NCBI GenBank assembly: GCA_023957835.1
Contig: JAMLGP010000001.1
Location: 1,047,575 to 1,111,574, forward strand
DNA length: 64,000 bases
DNA from: Homoserinimonas sp.
Lineage (GTDB): Bacteria > Actinomycetota > Actinomycetes > Actinomycetales > Microbacteriaceae
Reading direction: 5' to 3'
Within the stretch, counting starts at the first letter, position 1; every line of letters starts with the position of its first letter. The notes beneath the pieces were generated by a model that did not search any database, was not told the DNA's origin, and saw nothing but the letters and a program-made list of their open reading frames with translations. A program made the translations under genes and the position numbers. Shown here piece by piece: positions 9,412-20,890 of this stretch.

Positions 9412-11190
9412 CTAATCTGCTTCAGTTACCGGTTGCCGGTTGCCAAGCAGGTCGGAGAACATTGCCAAAATCACGGCGACCATGAGGGCAGTTCCGAAGA
9501 GCTGGTCTCCGATGCCGGCGAAGTCGCCAAGGTTGATCGACGCATCCGGGTTTCTGGACAGCGAAGTGAAGGCCAGAACCGTTACCCCAAAAACGCTGCT
9601 TGCAAGATATAGCAGCACTCTCGCGGATCTCGGATACTTTCTGGAAGTCTCATTTGCGTAGTCTCCGTCGGTCAGGAACGACCATACGAAACCGAAGAGG
9701 ACGAGCGCGGCTCCAGTAAAGCCGAGCAGGGCGCTAAGCGGATCAGAGATGAAGTCGTGGCTATTGAACAGGGATGCAACAAGAAGAATCACCGCGAGAG
9801 CACTCGCCCTTTGGACGGTCAATTTCCGCACGATTGCCGCCCAGACGAGAGCAATCAGCCCAGCGGATGTCACGACGAGAGTCAGTGCGCTTCCCGTCCA
9901 GAACCAGTCATTGAGCCCTGCGAGTCCCCCGATTGCCATCGTGGATGCAACGACGCCGACGGCAGCAAAGATTTCCGGAATAAGCTTCTTCCCCCGCTTT
10001 GCGAGCACGAATCCTGCGGCTATCAACCCGATTCCGACAATGAGCCTTAGCAGCCCGAATGAGGTCGTGGAGGAGAGAATTGCAACCAGATTCCTAACCC
10101 AGGCCGTTGAGTCATAGCCGACTCCATAGGTCATCACGATCTGAATCCCGAGCATAAGGATCACGAGCGGAACCAGGGTCACTGAGAACATTGCCGCAAT
10201 CGGAATCGAAAGCGAACCCAGCCGATCGACAAGACCCAGAGCCTTCGATTCTTCCGCTCCCGAGCGCAGTCTTGCGAAGGCAAGCCAAAGCAGCACTATT
10301 AGTCCGATTAGAACCAGCGAACTTAGGATTTCGGGCAACTTTGGCGCCGTGCCATACAGAAATTCCTGAATCGTGCTCCAAATCCGCCAAAGGACAATCA
10401 AACCGAGCCCGATCCAGAGCGCGATCGCCGGAAGCCTCCTCCTTACAAGTCCAATCGCCCAAAGTGCGGTAGAGGTCGAAATTTCTGCGACTGCGAGCCC
10501 GGCGGCTATGGCGGCCGGTACCGCCAATTGACCGATCTCGAACATGATGAGAGAAAGCATTCCCGGTGCGAAATCTATGCCGGTTGGAGCGCTCAGCTCT
10601 GCAGATCTCCACACCCCGATTGCAAAGACGCCCGAAATCAGCAGCAGCACTACAACGAATTCCCACCAGGCGAACCGATGCCGCCTGCGCAACAAGAGCA
10701 GAGCCACTAACCCGGCTATCGAGACGAAAGAGGCGATGTGCCCAATCGAGAAGAACCCCGACGTGTCGAATGCTCCGACGAATACCAGGATGAGGGCAGT
10801 CAGTCCGGTTGAAAGCCAGGCAAGCCAGGCTGACACGTGCAGCACGGCCGTTTGCAGCAGCGAAATCGCAAGCGCTACGAGAAACAGGATCACCCAAAGA
10901 ACCGCTCTGGGAAATGAGTGGACTACCGCGCCGTTGTTGACGGTCAATTCAACCGACTGCCTGATCCAGCCGGAGAACAAAATCGCGGAAACCGCAACTG
11001 CGTAGCCGATGATCGCGATTGCAACTATGGTTTTCAGCCCGAGCGGCCAGGCTTTGGAACGGATACGGCCGTCTCGAATCGGTTCTGCGAGCACGTGATC
11101 AAAGAGATCCCGAACTATAAGCCAGGTCGCCTTTAGCCCTCTGGCTATTAATTCGCGTCTTGTTGTGCGAGTTCCGGATTCTGTCGTCAT
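9412..11190 (-). CDS. Polytopic membrane protein of unknown function
   Basis: 592 residues, with a short charged N-terminus (about 45 residues, DRLFDH/EPIRDGR-type cytoplasmic segment) and then about 15 hydrophobic segments separated by short loops. I see no transporter, kinase or glycosyltransferase signature. Its ATG overlaps the TGA of the PQQ-propeller gene by 4 bp, so the two are translationally coupled and very likely function together. A 53-nt gap separates it from the following lipoprotein gene. The long hydrophobic array with few polar residues resembles an assembly or scaffold protein more than a classical carrier, but that is only an impression. Confidence 0.75.
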   Translation of the reverse strand: MTTESGTRTTRRELIARGLKATWLIVRDLFDHVLAEPIRDGRIRSKAWPLGLKTIVAIAIIGYAVAVSAILFSGWIRQSVELTVNNGAVVHSFPRAVLWVILFLVALAISLLQTAVLHVSAWLAWLSTGLTALILVFVGAFDTSGFFSIGHIASFVSIAGLVALLLLRRRHRFAWWEFVVVLLLISGVFAIGVWRSAELSAPTGIDFAPGMLSLIMFEIGQLAVPAAIAAGLAVAEISTSTALWAIGLVRRRLPAIALWIGLGLIVLWRIWSTIQEFLYGTAPKLPEILSSLVLIGLIVLLWLAFARLRSGAEESKALGLVDRLGSLSIPIAAMFSVTLVPLVILMLGIQIVMTYGVGYDSTAWVRNLVAILSSTTSFGLLRLIVGIGLIAAGFVLAKRGKKLIPEIFAAVGVVASTMAIGGLAGLNDWFWTGSALTLVVTSAGLIALVWAAIVRKLTVQRASALAVILLVASLFNSHDFISDPLSALLGFTGAALVLFGFVWSFLTDGDYANETSRKYPRSARVLLYLASSVFGVTVLAFTSLSRNPDASINLGDFAGIGDQLFGTALMVAVILAMFSDLLGNRQPVTEAD

Positions 11191-13034
11191 GGCGTACCCA
11201 CGATCGTGACACCCTGATAGCTCACAAACGCGAGCAGTCCATCTACAGCAGCCAGGTCGAATCTATTGATCTCGTTATCCAGTGAAGGGAGCTTCCAGGT
11301 CTTGGCTACCCTGCCTTCGGCATCGAGCAGCCTCGCCTCATCCGAGGTGAACAACACGAGCGATTCCCCGTCGGTAACTGCAGAGGCTCCGCCCTCGCCC
11401 GACCAGATAAGTGTTCCGTCATCCGGAGACAGCTCAAAGGACTGCTCCTGCGTTACGACTACGAGCTTTCCGGCCGTCTCCAGCACGCTCCGAACCGATC
11501 CCCGGTAGCTCTTGTTCCAGACAATTTCTCCGGAGGAAACATCCATGGCGGTGATCCCACCGTTCTGATCAACCACGATGAGCGCGGTTCCTATTAGCAG
11601 CGAGGTTGCCGGTTCCCCGGCCTGCGAAGTCCAGGCCGACTTGCCATCCGAAATCCTGAAGGCCCAGACGGTTCCGCCGCGATCGGCGACAATGACTTGC
11701 CCTGAACCGACGACGATATTGGCGCTCACATCTGCCGGAATCTGCCTTTGCCATCGAACTTTGCCGGTGTCGGCATCCAGCAGCTGGACTCGGCCATCCA
11801 GACTAACCACCGCTACTGCAGCATCGCCGCCTGCCTCAGAGGCCGGAACTTCGGCAGGAGTGGAGAGCGTGAGTTCTGCCGTGCGCAGAGTCCAGAGCCG
11901 CACTCCGGTCTCGGAGTACCCGACCACGTCCCGGGTACTCGTAGTTGCAACAATCAGATTGTCGAAGGCGGCCATGGAAAGGACTTCCCCGCCCGGATGC
12001 GCAAACCACTTTCGCTCAAACTTTCCGTTGGAGTAATCCAGGGCGACGAGGTCATTTCCGGTCTGATTGAGCGCGACTATGGTTCCGGACGGAGTGCGAA
12101 TGGGCGAAATCGACAGGGCCAGAATCAGCTTTTGCTCGAGAAAGAAGGGGTCCAGATAGCCGAGCTCCGCGGTGCTTACCGCCCAGCTGTCGATGTCTTG
12201 CCAGCGGACGGGAACTGCAGGCAGTATCGGGATTTGGCCAAGAGCCGACTCGATGGAGGCCGACCCCTGGCTCACTTTGGTTCCATTTATCGTGCCGATT
12301 GCGGCGACTTTGCCCTTGCCTTTGCACCACAAATTGCTTTCGGACCAATCGATGAATGGATCCGACTGCTTGTCCAGATAAGTGCTCGTTCCCTCAGTCT
12401 GGATGCAGTCCTTTAATTCGGCGGTGCTCAGTCCGGAAAGTGAAATCAACTCCTGGCTGGAGGGAGCCACCGCCTTGAAGTTTGAGGAATAGGTGAGGAT
12501 GCCGCCGGGCAGAGCGTCCCCTTTGCTTTGCCATTCGAACCCGACGCCCACGCTCTCGGGTAGTTCCAGGAGCGGCGGGTTGTAGACGAGTCCGAACGAG
12601 CCGCCGTAGCTCGCCAGCAGGCTCACTCCCTCTGAGGAGAGGCGATGCAGGTCTGTGGTCTGGTCCCCTCCCGCAACCGGAGTAGAGGTCTGCCGCCAAA
12701 GCTGAATGGTTCGCATATCCGATTCACTCAGGTAGCTGAAGAGTACAGAGGCGACCTTGTCCGGCAGGAGCAGAATGTCGGAATAGCCGACTGATCGTGC
12801 CGACTCGGAGACGAAGACCGCACCGGCGTCATCGGAATAGGCGTTGCTTTCCCCGTCCTGCGGAACGAAGCCGGCGGCGACCCCGCCCAGTATTTCTGTG
12901 TCCACACTGCCCGCGATGGAGACGAGGCTCCCCGCACCTATCGTGGCGAGCACGATGGTGGCAGAAGTTGCAATGGAGATCGATCTCGAAACCTTTGGCG
13001 CGGGGCGCCTGGCTTCCTGCTGAATAGTCTCCAT
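11187..13034 (-). CDS. Membrane-anchored PQQ-type beta-propeller protein
   Basis: 615 residues. One hydrophobic segment (about residues 20-45) anchors or exports the protein. The C-terminal half (about 320-600) contains repeated propeller blades: LLDADTGKVRWQRQI, AFRISDGKSAWTSQAG, AMDVSSGEIVWNKSYRG, ELSPDDGTLIWSGEGG. This DxxxGxxxW pattern is that of PQQ-like/WD40-like repeats (as in BamB), here without evidence of PQQ binding. The N-terminal half is unassigned. There is no Shine-Dalgarno site. TAATAT lies exactly 6 nt before the ATG, so the message is probably leaderless. It is first gene of the module with the polytopic protein (4-bp overlap) and the lipoprotein, and divergent from the molybdopterin oxidoreductase. 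Confidence 0.8.
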   Translation of the reverse strand: METIQQEARRPAPKVSRSISIATSATIVLATIGAGSLVSIAGSVDTEILGGVAAGFVPQDGESNAYSDDAGAVFVSESARSVGYSDILLLPDKVASVLFSYLSESDMRTIQLWRQTSTPVAGGDQTTDLHRLSSEGVSLLASYGGSFGLVYNPPLLELPESVGVGFEWQSKGDALPGGILTYSSNFKAVAPSSQELISLSGLSTAELKDCIQTEGTSTYLDKQSDPFIDWSESNLWCKGKGKVAAIGTINGTKVSQGSASIESALGQIPILPAVPVRWQDIDSWAVSTAELGYLDPFFLEQKLILALSISPIRTPSGTIVALNQTGNDLVALDYSNGKFERKWFAHPGGEVLSMAAFDNLIVATTSTRDVVGYSETGVRLWTLRTAELTLSTPAEVPASEAGGDAAVAVVSLDGRVQLLDADTGKVRWQRQIPADVSANIVVGSGQVIVADRGGTVWAFRISDGKSAWTSQAGEPATSLLIGTALIVVDQNGGITAMDVSSGEIVWNKSYRGSVRSVLETAGKLVVVTQEQSFELSPDDGTLIWSGEGGASAVTDGESLVLFTSDEARLLDAEGRVAKTWKLPSLDNEINRFDLAAVDGLLAFVSYQGVTIVGTP

Positions 13035-13072: not shown

Positions 13073-14680
13073 ATGTCTGAATCTCAGACTCAAATCCCCC
13101 GAAGCGCCGGACCTCCTCGAAGAGGTCGATTGCTTGCCGCCCTCGCGGGGGTGGCTTCGGTTGCCGCCGGAATCGGGGCCGCGGAGCTCGTCGCTTTGCT
13201 TACTGCCCCCGGGGCCAGCCCGATCTTCGCTTCGGGCTCGCTCGCGATTGATCTTGCCCCACAGTGGTTGAAGGAGACCGTAATCGGCCTGTTCGGTACT
13301 GCGGACAAGATTGTAATCATCGGCTCGGTAGTTTTGGGCGCGGCACTGATTGCGGCCCTCGCCGGCGTTCTTGAGAACGCGCGTCCGCCCTGGGGCAGAG
13401 TACTCATCGGTGCGCTTGGCGTGCTGACTCTGGTTGCGGCTCTCACCAGACCGGGCGCGGATTACCTCGCCGTTCTTCCGCCGGCAGCGGCCGTGACCGT
13501 CGCCCTGCCGGTGCTCAGAGCCCTGTTGAATCGGCTCCATGCTTTGCCCCACCATGTGCTCCCCTCCGGGCCCCGCACCGTGCGCCGCTCGAGTTCGGAG
13601 GAATTGGAGGGGATCGACAGGAGGCGTTTTCTGGTTGCCAGCGGCCTTGCGGCGGGGCTCGGGATTCTTGCCGCGGTCGGCGGGCAATTGGCCAGCGCCA
13701 GCATCCGAACGGTCGAGGCGGCAAGACGGGCGTTCAGCCTGCCGAAGCCGGCCATCGCTGCGGCGAGTCCCGAATCTGGGAACACTTTCGACATCCCGGG
13801 CCTTAGTCCTCTGGTTACCCCGAACGCCGACTTCTACCGGATCGACACCGCCCTGCTCGTCCCCTCGGTCGACCCGGAAAGCTGGAAGCTCCGAATCTAC
13901 GGACTGGTCGAAACCGAGGTGGAGCTCAGCTTCAAGGAGCTGCTCGCTTTGTCTCTCGAGGAGAGTTACACGACTCTAGCCTGCGTTTCGAACTATGTCG
14001 GCGGTGACCTGATCGGCAACGCGCTTTGGCTCGGCTACCCGATCAGGAAGCTCCTGGCTCAGGCCGGACCGCTTGCCGGAGCTGACATGGTGCTCTCGAG
14101 GAGCGTGGATGGCTTCACCGCGAGCACCCCTTTGGAAGTCCTCACTGACGATCGGAACGCGATCCTCGCGGTCGGAATGAACGGGGAGCCGCTCCCGCCA
14201 GAGCACGGTTTTCCGGTGCGGATGGTGGTGCCTGGCCTCTTCGGATACGTCTCGGCAACCAAGTGGGTCACAGAACTAAAGGTCACGAGGTTTGCCGACG
14301 AGACCGCGTACTGGACCGAGCGCGGCTGGGCGCAGCGCGGCCCGGTCAAACTTTCTTCGAGAATCGACACCCCCGCCACCTCCAGTCGGCTCAGGGCCGG
14401 TCAGGTGGTGATTGCCGGAGTGGCCTGGGCACAGCACACCGGAATTTCCAGAGTTCAGTTGCGAGTCGATGACGGAGCCTGGCAGGAGGCCGATCTCGCG
14501 CAGGCAATCTCTGCAGATACCTGGCGGCAGTGGATGACTACCTGGAATGCGACCGCCGGCCACCACAAGCTCACGGTCCGCGCCTTCGATGCAAACGGAA
14601 TTGCCCAGATCGAAAAGCCCGGCGATGTAGTTCCGGATGGCGCTACCGGACTCCACTCGGTGTTCGTGGACGTGAACTGA
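13073..14680 (+). CDS. Membrane-anchored molybdopterin-dependent oxidoreductase (sulfite oxidase/MsrP superfamily)
   Basis: 535 residues. The first part (about 20-155) has four hydrophobic segments. A Tat-like segment DRRRFLVASGLAAGLGILAA (182-201) follows, then the catalytic domain. The segment TTLACVSNYVGGDLIGNALW carries the conserved molybdenum-ligand cysteine (Cys304), and GFPVRMVVPGLFGYVSATKWVTEL is the diagnostic sulfite-oxidase-fold motif. The C-terminal 110 residues form the immunoglobulin-like dimer domain (VAGVAWAQHTGISRVQLRVDDGAW). This domain order is found in actinobacterial membrane-bound relatives of YedY/MsrP, and the catalytic part should face outward. The substrate (methionine sulfoxide, sulfite or other) is unknown. 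No haem partner is adjacent. Confidence 0.88.
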   Translation: MSESQTQIPRSAGPPRRGRLLAALAGVASVAAGIGAAELVALLTAPGASPIFASGSLAIDLAPQWLKETVIGLFGTADKIVIIGSVVLGAALIAALAGVLENARPPWGRVLIGALGVLTLVAALTRPGADYLAVLPPAAAVTVALPVLRALLNRLHALPHHVLPSGPRTVRRSSSEELEGIDRRRFLVASGLAAGLGILAAVGGQLASASIRTVEAARRAFSLPKPAIAAASPESGNTFDIPGLSPLVTPNADFYRIDTALLVPSVDPESWKLRIYGLVETEVELSFKELLALSLEESYTTLACVSNYVGGDLIGNALWLGYPIRKLLAQAGPLAGADMVLSRSVDGFTASTPLEVLTDDRNAILAVGMNGEPLPPEHGFPVRMVVPGLFGYVSATKWVTELKVTRFADETAYWTERGWAQRGPVKLSSRIDTPATSSRLRAGQVVIAGVAWAQHTGISRVQLRVDDGAWQEADLAQAISADTWRQWMTTWNATAGHHKLTVRAFDANGIAQIEKPGDVVPDGATGLHSVFVDVN

Positions 14681-14686
14681 CCCGGC

Positions 14687-15076
14687 TTAGCTGAGGAGCG
14701 AACCGAGCCAGAGCCCGAACGCGGCCGCGCAGCAGCTCCCGACCAGCGAGCCGAAACCATTGACGAGCGCCGCGGCGAACTTTCGCTCCTGGATCAGCCA
14801 CACGGTCTCGAAGCTCGCTGTCGAGAAAGTCGTGTAGCCGCCGAGGAAACCGGAGCCGATGATCGCTCCCAGTTCCACCGGCAGCAGCCGGGCCGCCGCG
14901 AGGCCCACTATGAAGCCGAGGAGCAGAGAGCCGGAGATGTTTATCAGGATTGTTCCCCAGGGCAGAGCCCTGCCGCCGAAGGACCTGGTCGTTCGAATCA
15001 CTCCGTCGAGAGTGAACCTTGCGGCAGCGCCTATTCCGCCTGCGAGCGCGAGCAGTGCGAACAGCCAGGCGCTCAA
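14687..15076 (-). CDS. crcB: Fluoride channel CrcB/Fluc, first copy
   Basis: 129 residues with four hydrophobic helices, the full length of a Fluc subunit. Diagnostic segments are GGIGAAARF near the start, PWGTILINISGSLLLGF (the Asn of the pore-lining GTxxVNxxG motif) and GFLGGYTTFSTASFE, containing the central-sodium and phenylalanine-box region. Fluc dimers export fluoride passively. This gene overlaps the other crcB copy by 4 bp (ATGA at 15073-15076) and is translated second. Paired copies in Gram-positive bacteria often form one heterodimeric channel. Confidence 0.93.
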   Translation of the reverse strand: MSAWLFALLALAGGIGAAARFTLDGVIRTTRSFGGRALPWGTILINISGSLLLGFIVGLAAARLLPVELGAIIGSGFLGGYTTFSTASFETVWLIQERKFAAALVNGFGSLVGSCCAAAFGLWLGSLLS

Positions 15077-15681
15077 CTTGAACTCCCGGATCGCAGTCTG
15101 TTACCCCGCGGCCGATTGAACAGCGCCCCAATCCAGATCCCAATCGCCGTAGCCACCGCGCCCACCAGTACCGTACCGAGGCCATAGGCGATTCCGGCCC
15201 CAGCCCAACCATCGCCGATAAGTAGCACCGAGTCGACAACGAGCGCACTGTAGGTCGTGAAGCCGCCCATCATGCCGGTGCCGAAAAACAGGCGAAGCGA
15301 CCGTCGCAGGCCGCGGTCTTCACCCCGCCTCGCGAGCGATTCGAGCAGAATCCCGAGCAGCATGGCGCCAGCCAGGTTTACGGTGAAAATGGCCCACGGC
15401 ACCCCGCCGTTTGCCGGCCAGGCGAGGTTGATCGCCTCTCGGGCCGCAGTCCCGACCGTTCCCCCGGTGAACACGGCGAGCAGGTACACCGGCCGGAAGT
15501 GGACTGGCAGCGGACGGCCCTGAGTGCTCTCGTCGACCTCGATGTCGGAATCAAGGGGAAGTTCGGGCCGGTCCTGAGCAAGCTCCCCGCCATCCGGACG
15601 TTCGCCGTCTTCCGGAGCCTCGCCGTCATCCGGAGCCTCGCCGTCATCCGAACGCTTGTCATCATCCGGAAGTTCGCTCAC
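15073..15681 (-). CDS. crcB: Fluoride channel CrcB/Fluc, second copy with acidic repeat N-terminus
   Basis: About 202 residues, roughly 70 longer than a standard Fluc subunit. The C-terminal 130 residues are canonical: GGTVGTAAREAINLAW, PWAIFTVNLAGAMLLGI, GMMGGFTTYSALVVDS. The extra N-terminus is hydrophilic and acidic, built from five 18-bp units coding PDDGEA-like hexapeptides. It probably lies in the cytoplasm, and its role is unknown. The GTG at 15679-15681 is the start I prefer, because upstream in-frame codons read into the divergent gene's promoter. No fluoride (crcB-motif) riboswitch is recognisable in the short upstream gap. Confidence is high for the channel, lower for the start. 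Confidence 0.85.
   Translation of the reverse strand: MSELPDDDKRSDDGEAPDDGEAPEDGERPDGGELAQDRPELPLDSDIEVDESTQGRPLPVHFRPVYLLAVFTGGTVGTAAREAINLAWPANGGVPWAIFTVNLAGAMLLGILLESLARRGEDRGLRRSLRLFFGTGMMGGFTTYSALVVDSVLLIGDGWAGAGIAYGLGTVLVGAVATAIGIWIGALFNRPRGNRLRSGSSS
15580..15669. repeat. Five 18-bp tandem units inside crcB N-terminus
   Basis: Units begin at 15580, 15598, 15616, 15634 and 15652. The third and fourth differ at one base, the others at several. In frame they encode acidic hexapeptides (PDDGEA, PEDGER, PDGGEL). A repeat of this kind can gain or lose units without breaking the frame. Confidence 0.85.
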
Positions 15682-15774
15682 ATCGATAGACCCTATTCCC
15701 TGCGACTGGCAAGCCGAAACCGGCGGTCGCAGGCAATGCAGCGATATACCGCGGGCAATCCACCTCCCAGTCGG

Positions 15775-15786
15775 TATCGTTAGGCC
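15775..15786 (+). promoter_or_regulatory. Leaderless-type promoter of the radical SAM operon
   Basis: TATCGT (15775-15780) stands 6 nt before the ATG at 15787. No Shine-Dalgarno site is present. Confidence 0.45.
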
Positions 15787-17421
15787 ATGACGCCAGCCGC
15801 GAACATCGGGATGCCGCTTCGGGACTACCGAATCCACCGATATGTCAATGCCTTCTGTCCCCGCTGCAATGAAGATGACCCGCTGCGCCCGCTTGAAGAC
15901 GTGCGCAGACTATCCGGCTGGCTCGCCGACCGGGACGGAACTATCTGGCTCGAGCGCGGCTGCCCGGAGCACGGGCTCATCAGCACCATGTATGACGAAT
16001 CGGCTGAGATTCTTCGCTACCTGGAGCAGTGGACTGCTCCGACCAAGGTTCACGGCCCGGACAACGCCTCGAACTTCAAGCCTGTACCTTCCGCTTACGC
16101 AGACGGGCTGCCGCAAATGCAGACCCAGCACACCTGCATTCTGCTCGAGGATCTGACCGACCACTGCAATCTGCGCTGCCCGACCTGCTTTGCAGAATCG
16201 AGCCCGGCAGCTTCTGCCATCGCCCCGCTTGCGGATGTCCTGGCCTCGGTCGACGATCGCCTCGCCAAAGAAAACAACCGCATTGACGTGCTGATGCTCT
16301 CCGGCGGGGAACCCACCCTCTACCCCTGGCTCGAGCAGCTCATCGAGCACCTGGTCGCGCGGCCGGTGGTGCGAATTCTGCTCAACTCGAACGGGCTTCG
16401 AATCTCCCAGGACGACGAGTTCGTCGAATTCCTCAAGAAACACCGCGAGCGGGTAGAGGTCTATCTGCAGTACGACGGCGAATCAGCCGAGGCTTCCACC
16501 TACCACCGCGGTGCGGATATTCGCCGATTCAAGGAGCGGGCGATCGAGCGGCTTTCTGCTGCCGGAGTTTTCATGAGCCTCACCATGACCGCGGCGCTTG
16601 GAGTCAATGACGGAGAAATCGGGGCGGTGATTGAGCGGGCCAAGCGCACTCCGTATGTCGGCGGAGTCACCATCCAGCCCGTGTTCGGCTCGGGGCGCTC
16701 TGCGGGAATCGACCCCAACAATCGACTCACCCACACCGGCGTGCTGGCCCGGCTCGGACCGCAGACCGATGGCGCGATCACCTGGCAGGACCTGACCGCG
16801 CTGCCTTGCAGTCATCCGCACTGCTGCTCGGTCGGCTATTTTCTGAAGGACGATTCAGACGAGTGGAAGTCGCTCGTTGCACTCATCGGCCACGAGCGGC
16901 TCAAGGAGTTCCTCGAACTCAACCCGGATTTGATTGCGAACCGGATCGCGGACTCGAACATCAACAAGGCGATTCGCGGGGTTGTAAAGTCGGCGCTACT
17001 GGACCTGCTTAGCGAGCAGTCATCCCTTTCTCACCCGTCGATGAGCGATATTTGGCGGGATATTTGCGTGAATTGCGACCTCGGGATCGGCACCCTCGCC
17101 ACCCTTGCCGCCTCGAAGCTGCCCGGCCAGCACGATCGGCTGCGCTCGATGCTCGCAGAGCGAGTGCTGCGGATCACGGTCAAACCGTTCATGGACATGA
17201 ACACCATGATCGAAGAGCGGCTTACCCAGTGCTGCGTCCACGTGGCCTCGGTCAATGGCGAGACTTCCGCTCACCAGTGCGTGCCGTTTTGCGCACTTCA
17301 GGCCTGGGCACCCCTCGCCCAGACCCGGATTTCGACCGCCCTCGGAAAGAAGCAAGTACCCCCTGGCGATTCCGCACATGCGGTCCGCGGTGCGAGAAAG
17401 ATCACGGTGAAGGCGAAATGA
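15787..17421 (+). CDS. Radical SAM protein of the Tes/MJ0619-like group (COG1964-type)
   Basis: 544 residues. The N-terminus has a rubredoxin-like metal site, CPRC (24-27) and CPEHG (59-63). The radical SAM core follows: CNLRCPTC with the 4Fe-4S ligands Cys127, Cys131 and Cys134, and SGGEP (172-176). The C-terminal third is rich in cysteines (CSHPHCC, ICVNC, TQCCVH, HQCVPFCALQ), implying auxiliary clusters. This architecture, including CPEHG and the final PFC segment, is that of the MJ0619/Tes group, whose archaeal member joins two lipid tails to make tetraether lipids. Other members are uncharacterised, so lipid chemistry here is inference. It is first gene of an operon: the ATG of the next gene overlaps its TGA, and an Lgt-fold membrane protein follows. 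Confidence 0.8.
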   Translation: MTPAANIGMPLRDYRIHRYVNAFCPRCNEDDPLRPLEDVRRLSGWLADRDGTIWLERGCPEHGLISTMYDESAEILRYLEQWTAPTKVHGPDNASNFKPVPSAYADGLPQMQTQHTCILLEDLTDHCNLRCPTCFAESSPAASAIAPLADVLASVDDRLAKENNRIDVLMLSGGEPTLYPWLEQLIEHLVARPVVRILLNSNGLRISQDDEFVEFLKKHRERVEVYLQYDGESAEASTYHRGADIRRFKERAIERLSAAGVFMSLTMTAALGVNDGEIGAVIERAKRTPYVGGVTIQPVFGSGRSAGIDPNNRLTHTGVLARLGPQTDGAITWQDLTALPCSHPHCCSVGYFLKDDSDEWKSLVALIGHERLKEFLELNPDLIANRIADSNINKAIRGVVKSALLDLLSEQSSLSHPSMSDIWRDICVNCDLGIGTLATLAASKLPGQHDRLRSMLAERVLRITVKPFMDMNTMIEERLTQCCVHVASVNGETSAHQCVPFCALQAWAPLAQTRISTALGKKQVPPGDSAHAVRGARKITVKAK

Positions 17422-17750
17422 ACGATTCTGCGGTCGGACCGCTCAATTTCAACGGACTGAATCAGAGGGATGCCTCGGTCGGCGAGCCTGCTCCCCCGTT
17501 TGATCCTCTTCGGCTTTGCGTCTTCACTACCGTCGCCCTAATCGCCTGCCTCACCGGGCCGTTCGCGGTGCTCGCGTTCTCTCTGGTTGCGATCGCCGGC
17601 TATTCAAAGGCGCGGCGAGCTGGGTTGCTTCGCTCGCGCTGCAAACTCGGCGATACTCGACTGGTTCTCGCATACCTGGCTGTGATCGCTGTTCTTTCAG
17701 CGGTTGCAATTCCGTTCTGGGTGATGTTGATCATTCGGGTCTGGACCTGA
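17418..17750 (+). CDS. Small membrane protein in the radical SAM/Lgt-like operon
   Basis: 110 residues. A polar N-terminus of about 30 residues is followed by PFDPLRLCVFTTVALIACLTGPFAVLAFSLVAIAGYSKA (two hydrophobic segments) and a third near the end (LAYLAVIAVLSAVAIPFWVMLIIRVW). I recognise no family. The ATG overlaps the radical SAM stop by 4 bp (ATGA), and the Lgt-like start is 3 nt after its stop, so all three are made together. A helper or membrane adaptor for the soluble radical SAM enzyme would fit. Confidence 0.7.
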   Translation: MNDSAVGPLNFNGLNQRDASVGEPAPPFDPLRLCVFTTVALIACLTGPFAVLAFSLVAIAGYSKARRAGLLRSRCKLGDTRLVLAYLAVIAVLSAVAIPFWVMLIIRVWT

Positions 17751-17753
17751 ATC

Positions 17754-18620
17754 GTGTTCCCCACCCTCCAGGATCTTCTGCCCTGGTCGCCACCGATAGA
17801 CACCCATTCGGTGTTTGCGACCCTCGGGCTGGCCGTTGCCGGAGGGGTATTCCTGCTCGAGTGGAATCGGCGCACCTCCCGAGGATTGATTGCCCGGGAT
17901 CACAGGATCGCCTATGTACTGCTCGGCGCCATGCTCGGGGCGGCGCTATTCGCGCGGCTGGGCACCTGGCTGCAGAACTTCGATTTCTCCAGGAACCTGA
18001 GTCTCATTGACCAGTTGCTCTACGGAAACGCGTCGATACTCGCGGGGCTCGTCGGAGCCTGGATCGGAGCCTGGATCGCCAAGCTCGCCTGCGGCTATCG
18101 CGAGCGAACCGGAGACATGTTCGCACCCGCGGTTGCCATTGGAATGGTGATCGGGCGAATCGGCTGCCTGCTCACCGAGAGGCCTGGAACTCCTACCGAC
18201 GCAGACTGGGGCATAGTGCTGGATGCTCAGGCGGCTGCGAGGCTCGACGCGCCCGCGGGAGTGCCCCTGCATCCGAGTTTCGCGTATGAGATCGCATTCC
18301 ACCTCGTCGCGTTTGCGATCCTCTGGTTCTGGCTGCGCAAGGCGCCGATCGCTGCCGGTGAGACACTCACGCTCTATGTTGCGGCCTACGGAATCTTTCG
18401 GTTCTTCGTCGAGTTCGTTCGCGGAAACGAGCTCGTCTGGCTCGGACTCTCCAGGCCGCAATGGTTTCTGCTCCTGACTGTGCCCCTGCTGCTCGGCCGA
18501 ATCTTCTGGAAGGCGCGGAGCGGCAAATTGCTCGCACCCCGCGGTCTGGCGGCGGAGAGAGCGGCCGAGGCCATCAATCCCGAATTCGCAACCATGGAAG
18601 GAATGACCCGTCATGACTGA
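17754..18620 (+). CDS. Lgt-fold (prolipoprotein diacylglyceryl transferase-like) membrane protein, catalytic His missing
   Basis: 288 residues with about seven hydrophobic segments in the Lgt pattern. The family block GMVIGRIGC (130-138) keeps the phospholipid-binding Arg (Arg135, equivalent to E. coli Arg143), but the usual Asn after GRIG is Cys138. HPSFAYE and GIFRFFVEFVRGNE are also conserved. The HGGL motif that carries the essential His103 in E. coli aligns with Leu96-Ala97-Gly98-Leu99 here, so the histidine is absent. It is therefore unlikely to be the housekeeping lipoprotein transferase. It may bind or transfer a diacylglycerol moiety in another reaction, plausibly linked to the upstream radical SAM enzyme. 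The GTG start follows the preceding stop by 3 nt. Confidence 0.8.
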   Translation: MFPTLQDLLPWSPPIDTHSVFATLGLAVAGGVFLLEWNRRTSRGLIARDHRIAYVLLGAMLGAALFARLGTWLQNFDFSRNLSLIDQLLYGNASILAGLVGAWIGAWIAKLACGYRERTGDMFAPAVAIGMVIGRIGCLLTERPGTPTDADWGIVLDAQAAARLDAPAGVPLHPSFAYEIAFHLVAFAILWFWLRKAPIAAGETLTLYVAAYGIFRFFVEFVRGNELVWLGLSRPQWFLLLTVPLLLGRIFWKARSGKLLAPRGLAAERAAEAINPEFATMEGMTRHD

Positions 18621-19242
18621 CGAATCCGAACCGAAGGAGCCAGCCAACGAGCCAGGCGAACAGCCCGGTTCCACCCCGGAATCTGATTCCGGTGCGCAGC
18701 ACGACTGGGTAGCGCCGGAGGCTAAGTCCACTTCTGCTAGCGCTGCGGATGCAGGGAAGCCCGCGGCAGACACACACCCACCGGCGTCATCACCGGCTCC
18801 CTCACCGACCCCACCCGACCCGCAATCTTTTCCGCCACCAACGGGCCAGCCACCCCTTTATCAGCCACCAGGGAACCAGATCCCGGTTGCACCGCAAGTT
18901 GCACCCGATCAGGCACAGGGCTATCCGTATCAGGCGCAGGGCAATCCCTATCAGGTCCAGCCGACGACAGCTCGTCCCCTCGGGTTTGGCGCGGGGTTGG
19001 GCATTGGTGCGGGAATCGGCTGTGTTGCCCAGTTCATCGGGCTCTTCATTTTTTTCGCTTTGGCCGCTTCACCGTTCTTCCTGGGTTCCTGGTTGTTTTC
19101 GGCGCTCGTACCGATCGCAGCATTTGTCATGATCTTCTTTGCGAAGACCCGCCCCTATGCGGTCGGAATCCTTATCGTTTCGGCCGCTGTTTGGATCGGG
19201 TTCCTCGGTCCGTGCCTTGCCATACTTCAGGGATTTGGTTGA
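18613..19242 (+). CDS. Pro/Gln-rich membrane protein, unknown
   Basis: 209 residues. The first 120 are disordered: acidic at first, then Pro/Ser-rich, then a tyrosine-containing YPYQAQGNPYQVQ repeat. The rest is a glycine-rich segment (GFGAGLGIGAGIG) leading into two or three hydrophobic helices. The layout resembles actinobacterial DUF4190-like proteins with a cytoplasmic PYQ-rich tail, but I cannot name the family. The start overlaps the Lgt-like gene by 8 bp, so it belongs to that operon, though function need not be shared. Confidence 0.7.
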   Translation: MTDESEPKEPANEPGEQPGSTPESDSGAQHDWVAPEAKSTSASAADAGKPAADTHPPASSPAPSPTPPDPQSFPPPTGQPPLYQPPGNQIPVAPQVAPDQAQGYPYQAQGNPYQVQPTTARPLGFGAGLGIGAGIGCVAQFIGLFIFFALAASPFFLGSWLFSALVPIAAFVMIFFAKTRPYAVGILIVSAAVWIGFLGPCLAILQGFG

Positions 19243-19500: not shown

Positions 19501-19576
19501 TGGTGGACCTGAGGGGACTCGAACCCCTGACCCCCTGCATGCCATGCAGGTGCGCTACCAGCTGCGCCACAGGCCC
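19501..19576 (-). tRNA. tRNA-Ala(GGC)
   Basis: 76 nt including an encoded CCA end. The 7-bp acceptor stem contains the G3:U70 pair that marks tRNA-Ala. The anticodon stem CCTGC/GCAGG holds loop ATGGCAT, giving anticodon GGC. The T arm has AGGGG TTCGAGT CCCCT. Confidence 0.97.
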
Positions 19577-19700: not shown

Positions 19701-20282
19701 TCAGACGTAGCCGAGGCTGGTTGCGGCGGCCCGCGCGATGACCATTAGCGGGTCGATTGAGCCGGCGCTGCCGGAGATTCGCATCTCGAAGCCTTCGACG
19801 AGGGTTCGGACCGTGTAGTAGCCGCCAGTTTCGCCGCTGTCATCCTGCCAGTAGCAGGCGTCCAGGAATGGCGGGCATTCGGACATGCCGAGGTCGGTCC
19901 ACTGATTGGTCAGGTACTCGTCGCTCGGGGCGGCGCGCTCAGCCACGAAGACCATGACCCCGCCTCCCGAATTCGGGATGACCCAGAGGCAGGTCAATCC
20001 GCCCCGCTCGGCGAAATCTGTTGCTTCCGGATCGGCGGTCGACAGGTCGAGTGCTCGCGCTTCGAACGCGTCACCAAGCTGTACCCGGATGGTCGCCAGG
20101 GGCACGAGCGCATCGCAGCTTGCAGGCAACTGGAGAGCAGCAGGGCTCGGCGATGGATCAGCTGATGCGCTCGGGCTTGAATCTCCCGGACCCGCCGGCG
20201 GCTCTGACGGGGGTGCTGCCGGGGTACAACCCACGAGCACCAAGACCAGGCCAAGCGGAATCAGGGTTGAACGCAAACGCAT
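19701..20282 (-). CDS. Predicted lipoprotein, tandem paralogue 1
   Basis: 193 residues from the chosen start. The signal peptide ends in lipobox LVGC (Cys19). A Ser/Pro linker is followed by a domain with SCDALVPLATIRVQL, GGLTCLWVIP, ECPPFLDACYW and a C-terminal ARAAATSLGYV. The upstream gene encodes the same domain with the same four cysteines, so two disulfides are likely. The layout recalls actinobacterial DUF3558-like surface lipoproteins, but I cannot confirm the family. I place the start at ATG 20282 because AAGGAG lies 6 nt upstream. An ATG 18 nt earlier overlaps the previous stop by 4 bp and reads through that site. Confidence 0.78.
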   Translation of the reverse strand: MRLRSTLIPLGLVLVLVGCTPAAPPSEPPAGPGDSSPSASADPSPSPAALQLPASCDALVPLATIRVQLGDAFEARALDLSTADPEATDFAERGGLTCLWVIPNSGGGVMVFVAERAAPSDEYLTNQWTDLGMSECPPFLDACYWQDDSGETGGYYTVRTLVEGFEMRISGSAGSIDPLMVIARAAATSLGYV

Positions 20283-20296
20283 TACTTTCTCCTTAC

Positions 20297-20890
20297 TCAT
20301 ACATATCCCATGCCGGTTGCTGCAGCGCGAGCAGTCTCCATTAGCGGGTTGATCGAATCGCCCACTGCCTCAATGCGCATCTCGAACCCACCTACGAGTA
20401 CGTGAATAGTCGTGTAGGTTGCCCCTACTTCTTCGAAGAAGATCTGCTCCCAGTAACAGCCGTCAAGGAATGGCGGGCATTCGCTATATCCTGCAGACTG
20501 CCAGCCTGCGAGCTTCGTCGCGTCAGGGACATCAAGTGGAGCGACATACACGGAGACGGAGCCGGCATCGGACTGTGGAATCCCCCAAAGGCAAATTAAG
20601 CCGCCTCTGTTACGGAATTCAATGGTCTCCGGACCGCCCCAACCGGCATCAATCGGGATGTACTCGAACGAGGGCCAGAACTGCTCGCGAATGGTGGCTA
20701 GCGGAACCAAGTCGGTGCAACTCGATGGAATAGCCAGGGCCACCGGTGTGCTGGACGGCTCGGGGGTGGATGATGCCACCGAGCTCGGTGAGGGAGTCCC
20801 GCTGGAGCCCGGCTCCGGGAGGTTCACAGTAATGCACCCTGTAAGCGGAAGTGCAATTATGGCGGGCAGTGCGAGATAGCGAAGCTTCAC
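20297..20890 (-). CDS. Predicted lipoprotein, tandem paralogue 2
   Basis: 197 residues. The signal peptide ends in lipobox LTGC (Cys19), then a Ser/Pro/Thr linker and a domain aligned throughout with its downstream neighbour: SCTDLVPLATIREQF, GGLICLWGIP, ECPPFLDGCYW, and the end ARAAATGMGYV. The four domain cysteines match. The pair arose by tandem duplication and has diverged widely in the middle. Function is unknown, with surface exposure inferred from the lipobox. It is first gene of the two-gene unit, the second start being within about 15 bp of its stop. Confidence 0.78.
   Translation of the reverse strand: MKLRYLALPAIIALPLTGCITVNLPEPGSSGTPSPSSVASSTPEPSSTPVALAIPSSCTDLVPLATIREQFWPSFEYIPIDAGWGGPETIEFRNRGGLICLWGIPQSDAGSVSVYVAPLDVPDATKLAGWQSAGYSECPPFLDGCYWEQIFFEEVGATYTTIHVLVGGFEMRIEAVGDSINPLMETARAAATGMGYV

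Follow-up and report, generated by a model that had tools for sequence, protein, structure and literature searches.

A gene cassette of Actinomycetota couples a Tes-like radical SAM enzyme to an altered Lgt-fold protein and is a candidate system for modifying membrane glycerolipids

Here, we describe a three-gene cassette in a 64,000-nucleotide stretch of DNA from Homoserinimonas sp. (assembly GCA_023957835.1, contig JAMLGP010000001.1, positions 1,047,575 to 1,111,574; hereafter the window), in which a radical S-adenosylmethionine (SAM) enzyme resembling the archaeal tetraether lipid synthase Tes is coupled to a small membrane protein and to a protein with the fold of the prolipoprotein diacylglyceryl transferase, Lgt. 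The explanation that we favour, with a probability of roughly 0.6, is that the cassette is mobile and serves to modify a membrane glycerolipid. Tes has known relatives in bacteria, whose function outside the cases of Mss, a membrane-spanning lipid synthase, is open (PMC8941075, PMC11868695, PMC9433317), and a Tes relative tied to an Lgt-fold lipid protein offers a physical clue to the class of substrate. The three genes are as follows:

15787..17421 (+): radical SAM enzyme of the Tes/TrsS superfamily (cassette clade); open reading frame (ORF) of 544 aa with no transmembrane (TM) segment
17418..17750 (+): small two-TM protein; ORF of 110 aa whose ATG overlaps the radical SAM stop codon
17754..18620 (+): Lgt-fold membrane protein; ORF of 288 aa with a GTG start 3 nt past the small ORF

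The ORFs lie at the coordinates given in the original prediction for this DNA, which was made from its letters alone, and the motifs it named in the enzyme (C24xxC27...C59xxH62, CNLRCPTC and the C-terminal PFC segment) are all present; the translational tie that it proposed between the enzyme and the small membrane protein is borne out by the overlap of ATG and stop codon.

The three genes keep one another's company across many genomes. A scan of genomes from 84,980 species yielded 514 relatives of the enzyme, and among the best 80 loci, which were those analysed, the Lgt-like gene adjoins the enzyme in 78 and the small gene likewise in 78, the exceptions being loci cut off at a contig end and one in which no small gene could be recognised. 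The order is enzyme, small gene, Lgt-like gene in 47 loci and Lgt-like gene, enzyme, small gene in 30, the median spacing between genes amounting to a few bases. On plasmids of Mycobacterium avium and M. branderi the genes are arranged in a third way, the enzyme being preceded by the Lgt-like gene and small ORFs. That the gene set stays constant while its order varies strengthens the link between them, and the synteny across Actinomycetota for which the original prediction had proposed to search is thus found in the set, if not in one fixed order. In a single sample of 396 Actinomycetota genomes, the enzyme and the Lgt-like protein had full-strength matches in an identical set of nine, the genome of the window not counted, and a tenth had a partial enzyme match only; the naive probability of this nine-genome coincidence, 1.7e-18, is overstated since the genomes are related. 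The linkage is far above chance. No other neighbour family was found to recur across genera in the best 80 loci, where ORF picking in this high-GC DNA was crude, and the same survey found no protein-modification or cofactor genes recurring beside the cassette. In the Bacteroidota, plasmid pPP1 of Persicobacter psychrovividus carries an LGT-family ORF that overlaps a Tes-like radical SAM gene; this ORF has the same His and Cys as the cassette proteins described below, its radical SAM partner retains the N-terminal cluster motif, and the pair has no recognised small gene next to it. This is one case, and it takes the pairing beyond Actinomycetota.

The enzyme is recognised in Pfam by PF04055 (Radical_SAM, 62.6 bits) and PF23545 (Zn_ribbon_HMPTM, 37.5 bits). 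Among the NCBIfam models, TrsS NF045646 ranks first (205.1 bits along residues 40-504, missing its cut-off of 490) and Tes NF045702 second (163.5 bits, missing its cut-off of 450). Its best match by sequence in the PDB is Tes MJ0619 (7tol/7tom; phmmer E 8e-35, profile E 5e-37), the sole solved structure matched at length; Foldseek with the predicted model also returns Tes (E 6e-20), and the structural match to 7tol reaches a Z of 23.3 over 390 residues at a root-mean-square deviation of 3.6, as against a Z of 14.4 for the next unrelated family, MoaA. The Tes-type layout proposed for this protein is therefore upheld, Tes being its closest solved relative by sequence and, along nearly the full length of the protein, by predicted fold. 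Membership of the MJ0619/Tes group, which was also proposed, holds for fold and layout but not in the sense of a true Tes, given a score of 163.5 of 450 bits, the loss of the N-terminal auxiliary cluster site, [Fe4S4]N, and a tree in which the cassette enzymes group apart, in a clade with support of 100/100. The Persicobacter enzyme joined beside this clade, where it was flagged as a long branch, and its placement was not used.

To compare residues, MJ0619 was aligned with 17 cassette proteins and 16 other relatives; its ligands of the rubredoxin-like site and of the N-terminal auxiliary cluster (C73, C77 and C80 of MJ0619) have been described (PMC9433317). Three segments carry the principal motifs:

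15856..15972 (+): C24xxC27...C59xxH62, corresponding to the rubredoxin-like iron site in Tes; invariant, and in the same columns in MJ0619 and 16/16 relatives
16165..16188 (+): CxxxCxxC (CNLRCPTC, C127/C131/C134), motif for the SAM-binding [4Fe-4S] cluster; universal in the alignment
17230..17292 (+): C-terminal Cys-rich PFC segment with C482, C483, C498 and C502, of which C482, C483 and C502 align with Tes cysteines

Most relatives share C341, C346, C430, C482, C483 and C502, and C427 and C498 occur in cassette proteins only; the C-terminal cysteines would, as in Tes, putatively bind an Fe-S cluster. Met439 and Tyr459 of Tes are replaced by Lys466 and Val486; MJ0619 with M439A or Y459F/L is still active, its activity being robust without Met439 or the Tyr459 hydroxyl (PMC9433317). 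In one locus (L012, G218), the radical SAM frame seems to hold an extra stretch of ~70 aa near query residue 356.

The partner passes the PF01790 (LGT) cut-off of 24.9 with 105 bits but misses that of the TIGR00544 equivalog (69.2 bits, cut-off 118.9). Its predicted model (mean pLDDT 86) finds a good match solely in E. coli Lgt (5azb), at Z 15.1 versus 7.7 for the next structure. Residues of 53 cassette Lgt-like members were tallied in E. coli Lgt numbering, against a reference sequence that matches the PDB chain in the part of it that was compared. R143, E202, Y235, R239, E243 and R246 are kept in 53/53, including the four that line the phosphatidylglycerol/diacylglycerol site of Lgt, R143, E202, Y235 and R239 (PMC4728403); the Lgt-fold partner of the original prediction is thus supported by family score, fold and retained phospholipid-site residues. 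Equally constant (53/53) are the replacements Y26 to His, N146 to Cys, H103 to Leu and N149 to Thr, the window's own protein having H18 for Y26, L96 for H103 and C138 for N146:

18153..18179 (+): GRIGCLLTE, altered Lgt signature motif (E. coli GRLGNFINGE), with the R143 equivalent kept and the N146 equivalent a Cys

In E. coli Lgt, Y26, N146, R143 and R239 are all required (PMC13251419). That the new His and Cys never vary suggests a protein with another activity, as opposed to a decaying one. Loss of H103 was considered as proof against Lgt identity and dropped; true Lgts of other phyla have W, Y or F here, and because the position varies among them it is left out as evidence. The second Lgt homologue of M. 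smegmatis, MSMEG_5408, has both Y26H and N146C and is presumed to have low Lgt activity (PMC13251419); it carries the signature of the Lgt-like subfamily, and we suspect from this that it belongs to a cassette.

This two-copy case, together with the PF01790 score, could mark the Lgt-like protein as an ordinary Lgt of weak activity, the second in its genome, next to a functionally unrelated radical SAM gene. We consider this very improbable in view of the co-occurrence and conserved coupling of the two genes, of a His and a Cys that are invariant where drift would be expected to vary, and of the canonical Lgt found elsewhere in the genome: in the assembly, a single contig of 2.07 Mb, a second Lgt gene lies ~325 kb away, scores stronger and retains the canonical residues.

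A glycerolipid substrate is indicated because the nearest relative of the enzyme joins lipid tails and its constant partner keeps the phospholipid-site residues, and we think it probable that the enzyme acts on a lipid. In the mechanism that we propose, the Lgt-like protein would bind a phosphatidylglycerol-type lipid via its conserved R143/R239 site and either present it or transfer its diacylglyceryl part, via His18/Cys138, to a non-lipobox acceptor; the radical SAM enzyme would dock at the membrane, perhaps through the small protein, and abstract hydrogen from an unactivated acyl carbon, and the new bond would be made through its C-terminal Fe-S cluster. In Tes, the substrate radical is stored on the C-terminal cluster and two sp3 carbons are joined (PMC9433317). 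Tail joining may be open to the cassette enzyme because the cysteines of this radical-storing domain are kept, and other C-H chemistry may be as well, because the cysteines are reorganised and the N-terminal cluster is missing.

Of the individual chemistries, tail joining is the likeliest, ahead of methylation, C-S bond formation and desaturation, although taken by itself it is only a tentative assignment. As a special case of glycerolipid modification, it would make the enzyme the actinobacterial counterpart of Tes or Mss and its products membrane-spanning lipids, diabolic-acid-type or macrocyclic. Consistent with this, Tes is the nearest solved fold, the cysteines of the radical-storage domain are kept, and bacterial Mss enzymes, which link fatty acyl tails, are described as Tes-like (PMC13274423); set against it are a score far below the Tes cut-off, the missing N-terminal cluster and the literature searched, in which no report of membrane-spanning lipids in these genera was found, and on balance we doubt it. 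Speculative, too, is a two-enzyme route to an undescribed class of bacterial lipid, whereby a Tes-fold enzyme with reorganised metal sites would rebuild or join acyl tails and an Lgt-derived His/Cys enzyme would move the modified diacylglyceryl group to a non-lipoprotein acceptor.

Several observations weigh against glycerolipid modification. The [Fe4S4]N ligands (C73, C77, C80 and a His) are missing in 17/17 aligned cassette proteins, while those of this cluster are present in MJ0619 and 13/16 other relatives; TrsS, a family of unestablished chemistry, slightly outscores Tes; the model of the radical SAM enzyme has a mean pLDDT of 66, a middling confidence at which the cavity could not be judged; and the altered Lgt residues could also mean a degenerate or scaffold protein. 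In addition, three relatives (L034, L117 and L119), which lie on a Mycolicibacterium plasmid and on haloarchaeal plasmids and belong to another, uncharacterised system within this superfamily, adjoin genes for a methyltransferase and redoxin, DUF547 or CcdA. With TrsS scoring higher and some relatives beside methyltransferases, redoxins and DUF547, it is unproven that the superfamily is wholly lipid-acting. The original prediction had named clustering with non-lipid families, along with an unconserved operon order, as what would count against it; the gene set proved constant despite its changes of order, and on the side of family the best-scoring named model is TrsS, with the substrate class still inferred. 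The same TrsS score, and the methyltransferase and redoxin neighbours of relatives, would suit an enzyme that makes a small molecule or cofactor, with the Lgt-like protein anchoring or exporting the product. This is unlikely to be the case, as those relatives fall outside the cassette clade, the cassette itself has no recurring neighbours of this kind and its Lgt-like protein shows no variation at the phospholipid-site residues.

The small protein contains two hydrophobic segments; TM1 is preceded by an invariant DPLRLC (C34) and TM2 by a positively charged loop that contains an invariant C75. Two such cysteines near membrane interfaces, in a protein present in both Actinomycetota arrangements and accompanied by a partner with the Lgt fold, raise the prospect that the system modifies a membrane protein, the Lgt-like protein attaching a diacylglyceryl group to its C34 or C75 and the enzyme modifying the small protein or its lipid. 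Neither lipobox nor signal peptide is apparent in the small protein, however, the Persicobacter pair has no recognised small neighbour, and Y26 and N146, which E. coli Lgt needs for cysteine lipidation, are replaced; we hold this to be a slim prospect and continue to favour modification of a membrane glycerolipid. A fourth gene follows in the window:

18613..19242 (+): Pro-rich protein with C-terminal hydrophobic segments; ORF whose start overlaps the Lgt-like stop

Searches of Pfam gave no convincing family for either the small or the Pro-rich protein. The C-terminal part of the latter matches ORFs 3' of the Lgt-like gene in ~35 loci, chiefly of the Microbacteriaceae type, and it was not found as a conserved neighbour outside these; given this loose conservation, we reject it as a core part and regard it as an optional gene.

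The cassette is widespread, though sporadic, across Actinomycetota from soil and animal-associated sources, being common in Microbacterium and Nocardioides and present on mycobacterial plasmids, so that, as far as the genes go, the novelty for this lineage that the original prediction expected does not stand; the tail-joined, ether or methylated product that it proposed stays conjectural. Within the genus it is absent from all other genomes (0/7), and in a sample of the family it occurs in 3/300 genomes, the window's included. In the five sister-genome regions that were read, neither the cassette nor the neighbouring crcB pair is present at this spot, while a sulfite-oxidase-like gene is kept in 5/5 and a tRNA-Ala with a lipoprotein gene lies nearby in 3/5. 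This sporadic presence and the plasmid copies point to horizontal transfer or repeated loss; the base composition of the cassette region is not distinct from that of the genes just upstream. A viral or phage origin was rejected, there being no relatives in viral contigs and a PHROG match to generic radical SAM only, as was a role as a defence system, since viperins match in the shared radical SAM core only.

The DNA from the sulfite-oxidase-like gene to the tRNA-Ala is a variable spot. At its upstream edge, 13073-14680 (+) encodes a sulfite-oxidase-like molybdopterin protein whose N-terminus is hydrophobic and which has a bacterial Ig domain, the gene being present in 5/7 sister genomes. Two neighbouring crcB fluoride-channel genes follow at 14687-15837 (-), the second of which has an acidic repeat-rich extension; its longest ORF runs into the radical SAM start, and the real crcB start is probably further in. 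Downstream lie a tRNA-Ala(GGC) at 19501-19576 and two tandem paralogous lipoprotein genes at 19701-20890 (-), the tRNA-Ala and a lipoprotein gene being kept near the same place in three sister genomes. Further upstream, 9412-13034 (-) encodes a 592-aa multi-TM protein, for which no clear Pfam family was found, overlapping the stop of a 615-aa beta-propeller protein of the pyrroloquinoline quinone (PQQ) type.

The cassette marks an altered Lgt subfamily that is presently annotated as lipoprotein transferase, and its hosts are culturable, allowing a direct test of function. If a new lipid results, the bacterial sources assigned to membrane-spanning or unusual lipids in the environment may need revisiting.

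Among known systems, a literature search in which few subscription journals were covered found no paper joining Lgt, radical SAM and membrane-spanning lipids. The GMGT synthase Gms was considered as a closer relative and set aside, PMC11186832 itself separating Gms from Tes. With Tes (GDGT-MAS, MJ0619), the cassette enzyme shares its overall fold, the rubredoxin-like site, the CxxxCxxC motif and the C-terminal CC...PFC cysteines. It differs in being without the [Fe4S4]N ligands, in its identity of ~22% and its score under the NF045702 cut-off, in the extra invariant C341, C427, C430 and C498, in the Lys and Val at the positions of Met439 and Tyr459, which are conserved in ~1000 archaeal homologues, and in having an Lgt-like partner. 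TrsS, the radical SAM (seleno)protein family, is the top-scoring named family, and the one TrsS-like row compared (L025) is also without the N-terminal cluster motif, whereas the cassette enzyme scores under the 490-bit cut-off and forms a separate clade in the tree. To bacterial Mss it is likened by description only, Mss being reported as Tes-like in fold and catalytic layout in the accessible portion of PMC13274423, where an Lgt-like partner is not mentioned. The Lgt-like protein, for its part, shares with Lgt its fold and the six conserved residues from R143 to R246, and departs from it in four changed residues (Y26, N146, H103 and N149), in its coupling to a radical SAM gene and in having a canonical Lgt alongside; in Y26H and N146C it is like MSMEG_5408 of M. 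smegmatis. The enzyme thus resembles a Tes-type lipid enzyme in its anatomy while falling short of what defines Tes, and its partner stands in the same relation to Lgt.

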